Shown one piece after another: positions 25,044-32,790 of a stretch of DNA of 64,000 nucleotides. This DNA comes from Jiella mangrovi. Its GTDB lineage: Bacteria > Pseudomonadota > Alphaproteobacteria > Rhizobiales > Rhizobiaceae. The position numbers and the translations under genes were made by a program. The stretch covers positions 62,001 through 126,000 of the forward strand of contig NZ_JAGJCF010000003.1 in the NCBI RefSeq assembly GCF_017815135.1, read 5' to 3'. The number at the start of each line of letters is the position of its first letter. The stretch's first letter is position 1. The notes under the pieces are model-generated. The model had not been told where the DNA came from. It ran no database searches and was given only the letters and a program-made list of their open reading frames with translations.

Positions 25044-26338
25044 GCCTTCCCGAGTCCCTCACACAGGCGGATGCGAGCCGGTCCAGCAGGCCGTTCTCGC
25101 GTTTCGAATGGATGATCGCCGGGCGCTATCTTCGCTCGCGCCGGCGCGATGCCGGTGTCTCGGTCATCGCCGGCTTCTCCTTCGTCGGCATCATGCTCGG
25201 CGTTGCCGCCCTCATCATCGTCATGTCGGTGATGAACGGCTTCCGAGGCGAGCTGATGATGCGCATCCTCGGCGTCAACGGCCACGTCATCCTGTATCCG
25301 ATCGACCAGCCGCTGACCGACTGGGAGGCGGTTGCCAAGCGCATTCAGGGTGTGGACGGCGTCCAGTTCGTCATGCCGATGGTGCAGGGGCAGGTTCTGG
25401 CGCAAGGGCCGAACACCGGTTCGACGGGCGCGCTGGTCCGCGGCGTGCGTCTGGCCGATCTGATGAAGCTCGCGCCGGTCTCCGCCAACGTCAAGCTCGG
25501 CACCTTGAAGGGCTTCGACACCGGGCAGGGGGTTGCCGTCGGCAGCCGGCTTGCCCAATCGCTGGGCATCGGCCTCGGCGACAACATCACCCTGATCTCG
25601 CCCGACGGCGACGTCACGGCCTTCGGCACCGCACCGCGGGTCAAGGCCTATCCGGTGACGGCGATCTTCGAGATCGGCATGTCCGAATATGACGCGGCCT
25701 ATGTCTACATGCCGCTCACGGAGGCCCAGCTCTTCTTCAACCAGGAGGACCGGGTGCAGTCGATCGAGATCTTCGTCGATCACCCCGACGAGGTGAAGGC
25801 CATGCAGCCGAAGATCGAGGCGGCCGCAGGCCGGCCGGTCTACACCGTCACCTGGGAAAGCCAGAACGAGAGCTTCTTCTCGGCGCTCAATGTCGAGCGG
25901 AACGTGATGTTCATCATCCTGACGCTGATCGTGCTCGTCGCCGCTCTCAACATCATCTCCGGCCTGTTCATGCTGGTGAAGGACAAGGGCCGGGACATCG
26001 CCATCTTGCGGACCATGGGAGCGACCAAGGGGGCCGTCATGCGCGTCTTCCTGATCACCGGAGCCTCGATTGGATTTGCCGGAACGCTGGCCGGATTCGT
26101 CCTCGGCCTCCTGTTCTGCATCAACATCGAGAACATCCGGCAGTTCTTTTCCTGGATCACCGGTGTCGTCCTGTTCAATCCGGAGTTCTACTTCCTCAGC
26201 CAGCTACCGGCAGAGGTCGATCCGAGCGAGGTGGTCCTCGTCGTCGGCATGGCGATCGGCCTGTCCTTCTTCGCCACGATCCTTCCCTCCTGGCGAGCCT
26301 CGCGGCTCGATCCGGTCGACGCATTGCGGTACGAATGA
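25040..26338 (+). CDS. lolC: Lipoprotein-releasing ABC transporter permease LolC/LolE
   Basis: Inner-membrane subunit of the LolCDE-type machine that extracts outer-membrane lipoproteins and hands them to LolA. 432 residues: one helix near the N-terminus (about 40-65, after the [26 protein letters not shown] motif), a large periplasmic domain of about 230 residues, then three C-terminal helices containing [24 protein letters not shown], the ATPase-coupling segment, and [22 protein letters not shown] at the end. Only one permease gene is present, as in other alphaproteobacteria, so it probably acts as a homodimer with LolD. GTG start overlaps proS. Confidence 0.94.
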
Positions 26339-27030
26339 TGGCAGAGAACCACGCACTGCGACTGGACCGCGTCGGCAAGGGATACCTGCAGGGCGAAAAC
26401 CGGCTGACGATCCTCGACGAGGCCGAGCTCAGCCTCGCGCCCGGCGAGATGGTCGCGCTCATCGCGCCGTCCGGCGCCGGTAAGTCGACATTGCTGCACA
26501 TTGCCGGCCTGCTCGATCGGCCTGATACAGGCGAGGTCTATGTCGGCGGTGTCGCCTGCGGCACGCTTGGCGACGAAAAGCGCACCGCGATGCGCCGCCA
26601 GGCGATCGGCTTCGTCTATCAGTTTCATCACCTCCTGCCGGAATTTTCCGCGCTGGAGAACGTCATGCTGCCGCAGATGATCGGCGGCCTGGCACGCAAG
26701 GACGCCGCGACGCGGGCCCAGGAACTCCTCGACTACATGCGTATCGGAGCGCGTTCCGAACACAGGCCCGCCGAGCTTTCGGGCGGCGAGCAGCAGCGCG
26801 TGGCGATCGCCCGGGCCGTCGCCAATTCCCCGCATGTGCTCCTCGCCGACGAGCCGACCGGCAATCTCGATCCGACCACTTCCGGCTATGTCTTCGATGC
26901 CCTGACGGCTCTCGTGCGCCAGTCCGGCGTCGCGGCGCTGATCGCCACCCACAACCACGATCTCGCTCGCCGCATGGACCACGTGATCACGCTCGAAGGC
27001 GGCAAGATCATTCCCCTCGACATGCACTGA
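26335..27030 (+). CDS. lolD: Lipoprotein-releasing ABC transporter ATPase LolD
   Basis: ATPase energising LolC. 231 residues with Walker [10 protein letters not shown]-loop [17 protein letters not shown] (the HHLLPEF stretch is typical of LolD/MacB-type ATPases), signature LSGGEQQR, Walker B HVLLADEP and the H-loop THNHDLA. It overlaps the lolC stop by four bases (ATGA). Forms the transcription unit proS-lolC-lolD and is followed by a GC-rich hairpin. Confidence 0.95.
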
Positions 27031-27342
27031 GCCCGGCGCGAGGCGAGGGCGCCTCGCGGGCCTCTGGCAGGGCACGTTGTCTTTCGTGTAAATCGATGCG
27101 CGGGCTCGAGGTCCGTGCTTTTACCTGTGCCAGGTAGCCGGTGCCGCGCGATCGACGTCGGTCGCTTGGCGGCCGTGCGCGCGTTCTGCCCCGTCAGCGT
27201 TGAAGCCGGCTCATGGCTAACAAGCTCTCAACGTCGGCCAAGGCACTGATCCGAAATCGCAAATGGTGACACAGCGCTGCAGCATCCATTTCAATGCACG
27301 GCACCGCCATGACCTTTTGTATGGCAGGCTGTGGAAAAGCTC
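27031..27342. other. Gap between lolD and the LexA-box promoter, no gene seen
   Basis: About 310 bases with no supported gene on either strand. Apart from the hairpin near its start it holds nothing I recognise; it ends at the TTGACG -35 box of the next promoter. Confidence 0.5.
27037..27058 (+). terminator. GC-rich hairpin after lolD, possible terminator
   Basis: A perfect 9-bp inverted repeat CGCGAGGCG-AGGG-CGCCTCGCG begins six bases after the lolD stop. There is no U-tract, so it is a stability or Rho-assisted 3' end rather than a textbook intrinsic terminator. Confidence 0.45.
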
Positions 27343-27371
27343 TTGACGATTGGAACAGAAAAAGAACAAAT
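27343..27371 (+). promoter_or_regulatory. Sigma-70-type promoter with embedded LexA (SOS) box
   Basis: A -35 box TTGACG (27343-27348) and a weak -10-like ACAAAT (27366-27371) are 17 bases apart. Between and into them lies GAAC-AGAAAAA-GAAC (27353-27367), an exact match to the alphaproteobacterial LexA site GAAC-N7-GAAC. A repressor bound here would block the promoter. The next gene downstream is the 28-residue membrane peptide at 27402. Confidence 0.75.
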
Positions 27372-27401
27372 GGAGACATAAAGGAAAACGGAGATAACCC
27401 C

Positions 27402-27488
27402 ATGCAAGAGATCGCCAAGGATGTCCTTTCCCTCGTTGCCATTTCGGGCTTCCTTTTCGCATTCAGTCTGATCATCCACGCCGTCTGA
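27402..27488 (+). CDS. SOS-regulated 28-residue single-helix membrane peptide (SidA-like architecture)
   Basis: A very short gene: MQEIAKDV, then a continuous hydrophobic helix (about residues 9-26, LSLVAISGFLFAFSLIIH), ending HAV. This is a single-pass inner-membrane peptide with a short charged cytoplasmic end. A good ribosome site GGAG lies eight bases before the ATG, which favours this start over longer upstream frames. A LexA box sits in the promoter 35 bases upstream, so it should be induced by DNA damage. Caulobacter SidA, an SOS-induced division inhibitor, is a 29-residue single-helix membrane peptide controlled by LexA; size, topology and regulation match, but I cannot show sequence homology. 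dnaE follows 212 bases later. Confidence 0.72.
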   Translation: MQEIAKDVLSLVAISGFLFAFSLIIHAV

Positions 27489-27700
27489 GCAAACCGGCCC
27501 ACATGGCGCTTCGTGTCATTGTTCGCGAGCTTTCAGACGCCGTCCAAGGCAGGCGCGTCGGTTTCCTGGGGACGGGTGACGAACGCGTCCTTCCATCGGG
27601 CAGCTAGGCGTCATACCGCTCTCAAGTGCGATTGCGTCAAAAGCGGTTTCGATCGCAAAGACCGCTGGGTGATCGGCGGACGAGACAAAGAGGTGCTGCC

Positions 27701-31189
<3,489 letters not shown>

Positions 31190-31398: not shown

Positions 31399-32745
31399 TC
31401 AGTCCGAAGCATCGGGGGGCGAGACAGGGCGACTGTCGTCTGTCCGTGGCGCCTCGCGGCGACGCCGTTCGAGCCGTCCGAACGTGATCCCGGTCTCGAT
31501 CGCCGTCTTGCCGAACTTTCCGCGCAGGCTGTCGAGGGCAGCTTCGGCCCGCGCCCGTTTGGCGGCGCCCGTATCGACGAGGTCGGCGGGGTCGGCTCTT
31601 TCGGCCGGGGAAAACTCCGAGCAGCCGACGCCGATCAGGCGAAACCGCGTTCCGTCGGCCTCTTTTTCGAGAAGCGCGCGGGCCGTCGCGAAGATGCGGT
31701 CGGCAAGCCGGGTCGGATCGGTGAGCTTGCGGTTGCGGGTGCGCAGGCGGAAGTCTGCGGTCTTCAGCTTGAGCACGATGGTCGAGGCGGCGAGATCCGT
31801 CTTCTTCAATCGCGCCGCGACGGTCTCGCACAGGTCGCGCAGGATCGGCGTCAGCGCCTCGAGCGAAGCGATATCGGTGTTGAAGGTCGTCTCGGCGGAG
31901 ATGCTTTTCGCCTCGCCGCGCGGATTGACCGATCGCTCGTCGATGCCGCGGGCAAGGCGCCACAGCCGCCGGCCGGTGTCGCCGTAGCGTTTCATCAGCT
32001 CGGCCTCGTCCATCGTCTGGAGCTGGCCGATTCGGGAAAGGCCGTCGCGCGACAGCTTCTGCTCCATCGCCTGACCGACCCCCCAGATCAGGGTGATCGG
32101 CTTGTCGGCGAGGAAACTCAGGGTCTCTTGCCGGCCGATCACGGAAAAGCCGCGGGGTTTCTCGAGATCGCTGGCGATCTTGGCGAGAAATTTGTTGTGC
32201 GACAGGCCGACGGAGACCGTGATTCCGAGCTCGGTTTCGATCCGCCTGGCGAGTCTTGCCAGGGTCAGGCTGCTCGGCTCCCGGTGCAGCGCCTGTGTTC
32301 CCGAAAGGTCGAGAAACGCCTCGTCGATCGACAGCGGCTCGACCAGCGGCGTGATTTCGCCCATCAGCGCGCGGACCGAGCGCCCGACGGATGCGTATTT
32401 TTCCATGTTCGGCCGAAGCACGACCGCGTCGGGGCAGAGCTTGAGCGCCTTGAACATCGGCATGGCGGAACGGACGCCGCGGATGCGGGCGATGTAGCAG
32501 GCGGTGGAGACGACGCCGCGCCTTCCGCCGCCGATGATGACGGGCTTATGGGCAAGCTCGGGCCGGTCCCGCTTTTCGACGCTGGCGTAGAAGGCGTCGC
32601 AGTCGAGATGGGCGATCGACAGGCTCGACGCCTCCGGATGGTCGACGATGCGCGGGCTGCCGCAGACACGGCATCGCCGGGCGCCCGACTTTGCGGGCGT
32701 CAGACAGTCGCGGCAGAAGATAGAAAGGTCCGGAATCGCCATCAT
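31399..32745 (-). CDS. dinB: DNA polymerase IV (DinB) with N-terminal zinc-ribbon-like extension
   Basis: Y-family translesion polymerase, 448 residues. The palm motifs are present: [14 protein letters not shown] and [11 protein letters not shown], with the little-finger domain following. Before the polymerase core is a 40-residue extension with paired cysteines (CRDC ... RCRVCG), a zinc-ribbon-like module; I recall the same in rhizobial DinB proteins. The C-terminal 50 residues are Arg/Pro-rich and I see no clear clamp-binding motif in them. Convergent with dnaE. The start region has two consecutive ATGs (32743-32745 and 32740-32742). A LexA box lies 31 bases upstream, predicting SOS induction. 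Confidence 0.94.
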
Positions 32746-32775: not shown

Positions 32776-32790
32776 GAACGAAGGAAGAAC
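32776..32790 (-). promoter_or_regulatory. LexA (SOS) box upstream of dinB
   Basis: GAAC-GAAGGAA-GAAC, an exact alphaproteobacterial LexA site, 31 bases upstream of the dinB start codon. Read on the dinB strand it is GTTC-N7-GTTC. It supports SOS control of dinB and validates the same motif upstream of the 28-residue peptide at 27402. Confidence 0.85.

Follow-up and report, generated by a model that had tools for sequence, protein, structure and literature searches.

SOS-controlled membrane peptides and the locus in Jiella mangrovi

The closest described system to the locus reported here is SidA, a 29-residue inner-membrane peptide of Caulobacter crescentus that is under SOS control and binds FtsW (PMC4211646). 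It has been grouped with YneA, which blocks late division, and with SosA and ChiZ as SOS-induced single-helix inhibitors for which FtsW is the target or the modeled target, the placements of SidA, SosA, and ChiZ on transmembrane helix 7 (TM7) of FtsW being low-confidence models (PMC13396833). Here, we analyze a 28-codon gene, MQEIAKDVLSLVAISGFLFAFSLIIHAV, in a 64,000-nucleotide stretch of the Jiella mangrovi genome (family Rhizobiaceae; contig NZ_JAGJCF010000003.1, positions 62,001 to 126,000; the whole stretch is called the window below). Judged by sequence, it is a real short gene with a LexA-type box and one predicted transmembrane helix, conserved in its family and beyond, and we consider it probable that its product is an SOS division inhibitor that blocks septal wall synthesis as SidA does, by analogy through FtsW/FtsI/FtsN.

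A conserved short gene behind a LexA-type box

The elements of the locus are as follows, in window coordinates, with distances in nucleotides (nt).

27343..27348, + strand: -35 element TTGACG, from sequence
27353..27367, + strand: LexA box GAACAGAAAAAGAAC, an exact GAAC-N7-GAAC overlapping the promoter spacer and the -10
27366..27371, + strand: putative -10 element ACAAAT, weak, 17-base spacer, 3/6 matches to TATAAT
27390..27393, + strand: ribosome-binding site GGAG, from sequence, 8 nt 5' of the ATG at 27402
27402..27488, + strand: 28-codon gene MQEIAKDVLSLVAISGFLFAFSLIIHAV with one hydrophobic helix, ATG at 27402 and TGA at 27486-27488

An initial annotation of this DNA had described an exact box within a promoter, followed by a good ribosome site and a 28-codon open reading frame (ORF) for a single transmembrane helix. 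Re-reading returned the box, the ribosome site, and the ORF at the positions above, and the helix is predicted from hydropathy in the family and beyond. The promoter held up in its -35 half, TTGACG; its -10 half is weak, and a strict sigma-70 scan listed no promoter within 27030-27760. A longer in-frame start at 27294 (64 amino acids) was rejected, as homologs have the start at 27402 in common.

Searched by itself against 61 genomes, the window peptide matched 10 of 10 genomes of the source genus, its own included. A 13-row profile matched 310 of 394 family genomes at an expectation value (E) of ≤1, the weak matches including chance ones, and a 28-row profile with a further clade added, its rows drawn partly from the same genomes as were searched, matched 335 of 394 genomes and 95 of 109 sampled genera at E≤1e-3. 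The latter count is a lower bound, since four unmatched genomes (G010, G019, G066, and G071) hold a member before dnaE. Of the outcomes that the initial annotation had named as refuting its proposal, a lack of conservation in relatives did not occur: the peptide is conserved in the family and beyond.

Association with the box was assessed in 60 hand-picked loci drawn from the peptide hit lists, so that selection was not on the box. The peptide was present in all 60 (57 distinct sequences), with 28 residues in 58 loci and, at the best-scoring start, 25 and 27 in the other two. An exact box lay ≤80 nt upstream in 53 of the 60, as against 3 of 722 control 80-nt windows from the same fragments, and the ATG mostly followed the box by 20 to 40 nt; the pairing of box and peptide is far beyond chance. 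Promoter spacing and box number were counted in 220 distinct loci, pattern-selected ones included: TTGAC ended 4 nt (149 loci) or 5 nt (16 loci, as in the window) 5' of the box in 165 and was not found in 49, and two boxes were present in 99, 11 bp apart in 87 of those 99. The box, D7, and F17 are imposed by the selection in the pattern-selected set of 118 loci, of which 116 encode the peptide and 2 are chance matches. The pattern scan also matched Peribacillus and Massilia records (L125 and L118), chance matches with no peptide.

A search of relatives for short ORFs behind LexA boxes before dnaE, as the initial annotation had proposed, was made in 30 genomes, one per genus, that had no strong match to the first profile. 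The region before dnaE held a member in 25 of them, mostly of the clade MTDFVRDLAAFASMSLFIASISFIALGL and some of 32 or 37 residues. Twenty-three of these members had an exact box ≤80 nt upstream; in L218 an exact box lies 66 nt before the ATG, just missed by the 80-nt count, and L211 has one-mismatch boxes only. No member stood before dnaE in the other five loci (L189-L191, L199, and L212), and one of those five genomes, G117, does have a profile match. Members of 32 to 37 residues (L217, L218, L205, L213, and loci L327-L346) carry a C-terminal tail with W/E/D past the 28-residue core.

Nucleotide changes among the homologs are mostly silent, and the peptide is under selection at the protein level. 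Nonsynonymous and synonymous differences (pN and pS) gave a pN/pS of 0.20 (pS 0.44, pN 0.088; 600 of 3289 pairs), and within the source genus nine distinct sequences gave pS 0.443 and pN 0.154. D7 and F17 are kept in 58 of 58 28-residue peptides from the set not selected on them and are near-invariant overall, with E for D in the 27-residue peptide and in L327, and L for F in L205. Across 146 distinct peptides, D, E, K, and R are absent from residues 8-28 (H count, 15), and in the window peptide the mean Kyte-Doolittle value of that segment is 2.34, a measure of hydropathy only. Eight peptides had no Pfam match at E≤10; six of eight had no NCBIfam match, the other two giving sub-threshold matches to LH1 alpha (12 bits, cut-off 35); and the Protein Data Bank held no relative among solved structures.

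GAAC-N7-GAAC as a probable LexA operator

The motif is very likely a LexA operator in the source genome, given its genomic enrichment, its placement before SOS genes, and its match to the Caulobacter SOS box. It occurs 145 times (77 + 68) in the source genome, against 68 (35 + 33) for the reversed control pattern. Six genomic boxes were inspected: four, with mostly A-rich spacers, precede uvrA/ssb, dinB, a gene of the abortive-infection type, and an imuB-like gene that has an error-prone-polymerase-like ORF behind it, and the remaining two have no clear SOS gene. The box before dinB, to which the initial annotation had pointed, is real:

32776..32790, + strand: second LexA-type box, upstream of dinB, from sequence
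31399..32745, minus strand: dinB, DNA polymerase IV gene, near the second LexA-type box

The Caulobacter SOS box is given as GTTC-N7-GTTC (PMC9578287 Table 1), which is GAAC-N7-GAAC read on the opposite strand. An A-rich exact box in the source genome (G000:C7:115247-115261; L382:3048-3062) lies 38 nt 5' of a gene with Pfam AbiJ N-terminal and abortive-infection C-terminal domains, possibly an SOS-controlled defense gene.

Gene neighborhood and relation to dnaE

In the window, the peptide gene stands between two neighbors on the same strand:

26335..27030, + strand: lolD-like ABC ATPase gene, upstream neighbor (Pfam ABC_tran; LolD the best NCBIfam match, at 251 bits under a cut-off of 307.75)
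27701..31189, + strand: dnaE, replicative DNA polymerase III alpha, downstream neighbor (NCBIfam PRK05673, 1481 bits, cut-off 1002; Pfam)

A terminator-like stem at 27098-27118 lies 3' of lolD, a weak signal with 2 found in the window against 1.0 in shuffles. Neighbors were counted in 52 family loci with flanks of up to 1.5 kilobases (kb), shortened in some by a contig end. A lolD-like gene was the upstream neighbor in 33, a convergent lipB occurred in 9, and dnaE was recognized downstream in 20; the other 32, all of the [M]-x4-QD type, had no recognized dnaE within 1.5 kb, which speaks against the peptide gene being a mere leader of dnaE and for a unit of its own. As a general role, that of an upstream ORF (uORF) of dnaE is thus unsupported.

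In Sinorhizobium meliloti Ak57, a member with two boxes, MADFVRDLAAFASMSLFIVSISVIALGL, is flanked by an annotated ABC ATPase gene and by dnaE. The record shows no feature on it; its gene table, the sole one there, is incomplete by its own description. Ribosome profiling of S. meliloti 2011 found a translated novel small ORF, sORF25, in the 5' untranslated region (5'-UTR) of dnaE1 (PMC10117765), and we infer that sORF25 is an ortholog of the present peptide: both are small ORFs, and the Ak57 member likewise lies before dnaE, although LexA is nowhere mentioned in that paper. The same study describes SEP6, a protein of <30 amino acids with one helix, found in the pellet fraction and conserved in Hyphomicrobiales (PMC10117765); it carries a different sORF number and was therefore not equated with the peptide.

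Distribution beyond the family

Within the order, 45 of 269 genomes matched at E≤0.02, 10 inside the family and 35 outside. The best-scoring 20 of the 35 outside-family loci (L327-L346; some from one genus) were inspected, and as these were chosen by peptide score, their boxes and neighbors give independent support: an exact box lay ≤60 nt upstream in 18 of the 20 (L330, a truncated locus, among them; one-mismatch only in the other 2), dnaE lay downstream on the same strand in 19, and a lolD-like gene was present in 14.

A scan of 385 genomes of the class with that profile added two matches. One, in G763, lies inside a 583-residue frame and has no box; the other, in G791 from another order, is a 34-residue member that follows an exact box by 31 nt and is flanked by lolD upstream and dnaE downstream. 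An earlier profile had given 24 weak others at E≤0.1, of which G791 was the one inspected. Against a class-wide picture, 383 of the 385 genomes had no credible match to this profile, which is tuned to the family, and neither a box nor such an ORF stood before dnaE in five replicons (Methylobacterium, Rhodobacter, Pseudorhodobacter, Azospirillum, and Ruegeria), some of whose dnaE genes may be second copies.

Plasmid records held no match to the window peptide, a QDVV-type peptide, or two outside-family peptides; an RDLA-type peptide matched five records in the plasmid search, all chromosome-sized. Phage records held no match to one box-less peptide, and viral contigs gave two pattern matches, neither coding for the peptide, and 0 with a second pattern. 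Two box-less relatives, L316 (G017:C37:51337-51420; MRDLVQDTCSF...) and L318 (G173:C3:122327-122410; MNALIQDTCAL...), adjoin phage-type genes, namely phrog_2045/DUF5131, repressor-like helix-turn-helix proteins, and phrog_632, and are possibly phage-carried copies freed from LexA.

Caulobacter dnaE, which is CC1926 (PMC1839093 Table 7), is listed as SOS regulated (PMC3323433). Such a listing would be expected from a box before a peptide gene upstream of dnaE. Together with the position of sidA as a neighbor of dnaE in Caulobacter, it makes orthology with SidA plausible; the peptide family is perhaps orthologous to SidA, though functioning as SidA does and being its ortholog are distinct questions. 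Taken as a whole, we regard as evenly balanced the proposal that SidA is no Caulobacter orphan but belongs to an ancient alphaproteobacterial family of SOS checkpoint peptides (M-x4-[RKQ]-D-x9-F, 28 to 37 residues) whose gene ancestrally lay between lolD and dnaE and was missed for its shortness, that reports of LexA-regulated dnaE reflect the promoter of the peptide, and that some phage-like elements hold LexA-free copies.

Proposed function and alternative explanations

A LexA repressor seated in a promoter blocks RNA polymerase, and DNA damage lifts it. At this locus, LexA bound within the promoter would exclude RNA polymerase and keep the peptide gene silent; damage would remove LexA, and a 28-residue inner-membrane peptide would be made, its short N terminus on the cytoplasmic side and its single helix across the membrane. 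With hardly any sequence outside its helix, the peptide presumably acts either via the membrane itself or via a partner there, and the fixed length, the fixed D7 and F17, and the uncharged helix favor a partner, bound with D7 and F17 as fixed points, over membrane disruption. The most likely partner, by analogy, would be the septal cell wall machine FtsW/FtsI/FtsN, held inactive so that no division takes place over damaged DNA, as with SidA in Caulobacter, where deletion of sidA relieves the filamentation of a lexA deletion; a SidA-like block is favored because known non-toxin SOS single-helix peptides, in the literature covered here, block late division at FtsW/FtsI/FtsN (PMC4211646; PMC13396833). 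Division inhibition by a SidA counterpart fits the size and regulation of the peptide, and also the source genome, where SulA (Pfam PF03846) had 0 matches with a positive Escherichia coli control. Several points weigh against this interpretation. An exact box is absent in 7 of the 60 hit-list loci (4 with a one-mismatch box, 3 without either), and 59 of the 394 family genomes have no match to the 28-row profile at E≤1e-3, several of the unmatched genomes listed being small (1.1 to 2.0 megabases). Conservation along the helix shows no significant periodicity (p 0.05 to 0.14), FtsW/FtsI/FtsN is proposed as the target purely by analogy, damage induction and an effect on division are predicted from sequence, and where dnaE adjoins, the same promoter likely serves dnaE too by read-through. 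The interpretation of the initial annotation is, overall, partly supported.

An SOS-induced membrane toxin or dormancy peptide of the TisB or DinQ kind, whose inserted helix would lower membrane potential and slow growth with no divisome target, would share the LexA-type control, the tiny size, and the one helix, and DinQ is a toxic single-helix peptide under SOS control (PMC3567139). We nevertheless consider this unlikely, as a specific partner is suggested by the fixed D7 and F17 and the lack of charged residues in the helix, the 5' leader is short, with the ATG so close behind the box, and no Rfam match around the gene reached its cut-off (two matches, both far under; antisense RNA was not otherwise searched for). 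Modulation of another membrane system, e.g., the Lol complex, the polar growth machinery, or a respiratory complex, would find its best argument in the lolD-like upstream neighbor, common both in the family and among the best-scoring outside-family loci, but the weak terminator-like stem after lolD, the peptide's own promoter, and the lack of a relative among solved structures count against it, and its chances are likewise small.

Smaller again is the probability that the SOS promoter really serves dnaE, with the ORF as its leader peptide (uORF) or a mere passenger. The frequency of dnaE as the next gene, above all in 19 of the 20 best-scoring outside-family loci, the SOS listing of Caulobacter dnaE, and the position of sORF25, together with the uORF roles suggested for sORFs in 5'-UTRs (PMC10117765), would all suit such a leader; the 32 of 52 family loci with no dnaE recognized, the 9 with convergent lipB, and the selection on the protein sequence do not, since nothing in the role of a leader calls for a fixed transmembrane sequence. 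The possibility that ORF and box both arose by chance was rejected and has a negligible probability: the three exact boxes in the 64-kb window are not above chance (mean 2.23 expected; reached by 39 of 100 shuffles), but conservation in 335 of 394 genomes, the 53 of 60 boxes, the pN/pS of 0.20, and the outside-family loci refute it.

Significance and comparison with known systems

In the open-licence literature searched, we found no description of an SOS division inhibitor in Hyphomicrobiales or of a LexA-controlled peptide before dnaE; the kind of peptide is already known, and its family, breadth, and genomic place seem to be undescribed as such. The peptide offers a one-gene candidate for a post-damage division stop, found in 95 of the 109 genera sampled in the family and present in S. 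meliloti. It also suggests an alternative interpretation of the LexA boxes that precede dnaE, and it represents a further family of very short proteins, one with no listed feature in the one S. meliloti gene table covering it.

Set beside known systems, the candidate would share with SulA the function of SOS division inhibition, whereas SulA is a soluble FtsZ inhibitor with no Pfam match in the source genome. TisB and DinQ of E. coli are likewise tiny LexA-controlled membrane peptides, but they are type I toxins, each paired with an RNA antitoxin, and TisB is charged and amphipathic, whereas an Rfam search, the only one made for it, identified no antitoxin RNA at this locus. YneA of Bacillus subtilis, SosA of Staphylococcus aureus, and ChiZ of Mycobacterium tuberculosis are small proteins too, each with a single membrane helix, induced by damage and active late in division, but LysM is present in YneA and ChiZ and SosA has an extended region (PMC13396833), whereas the present peptide extends barely beyond its helix. 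DidA of C. crescentus is also a damage-induced single-helix division inhibitor, longer at 71 amino acids and LexA independent (PMC4211646). SidA remains the nearest: while its inhibition of division and binding to FtsW have been shown and are proposed here by analogy, both come from alphaproteobacteria, have similar lengths and a single inner-membrane helix (predicted here from hydropathy), and stand behind a LexA-type promoter, with an exact box here and in 53 of the 60 loci by sequence.
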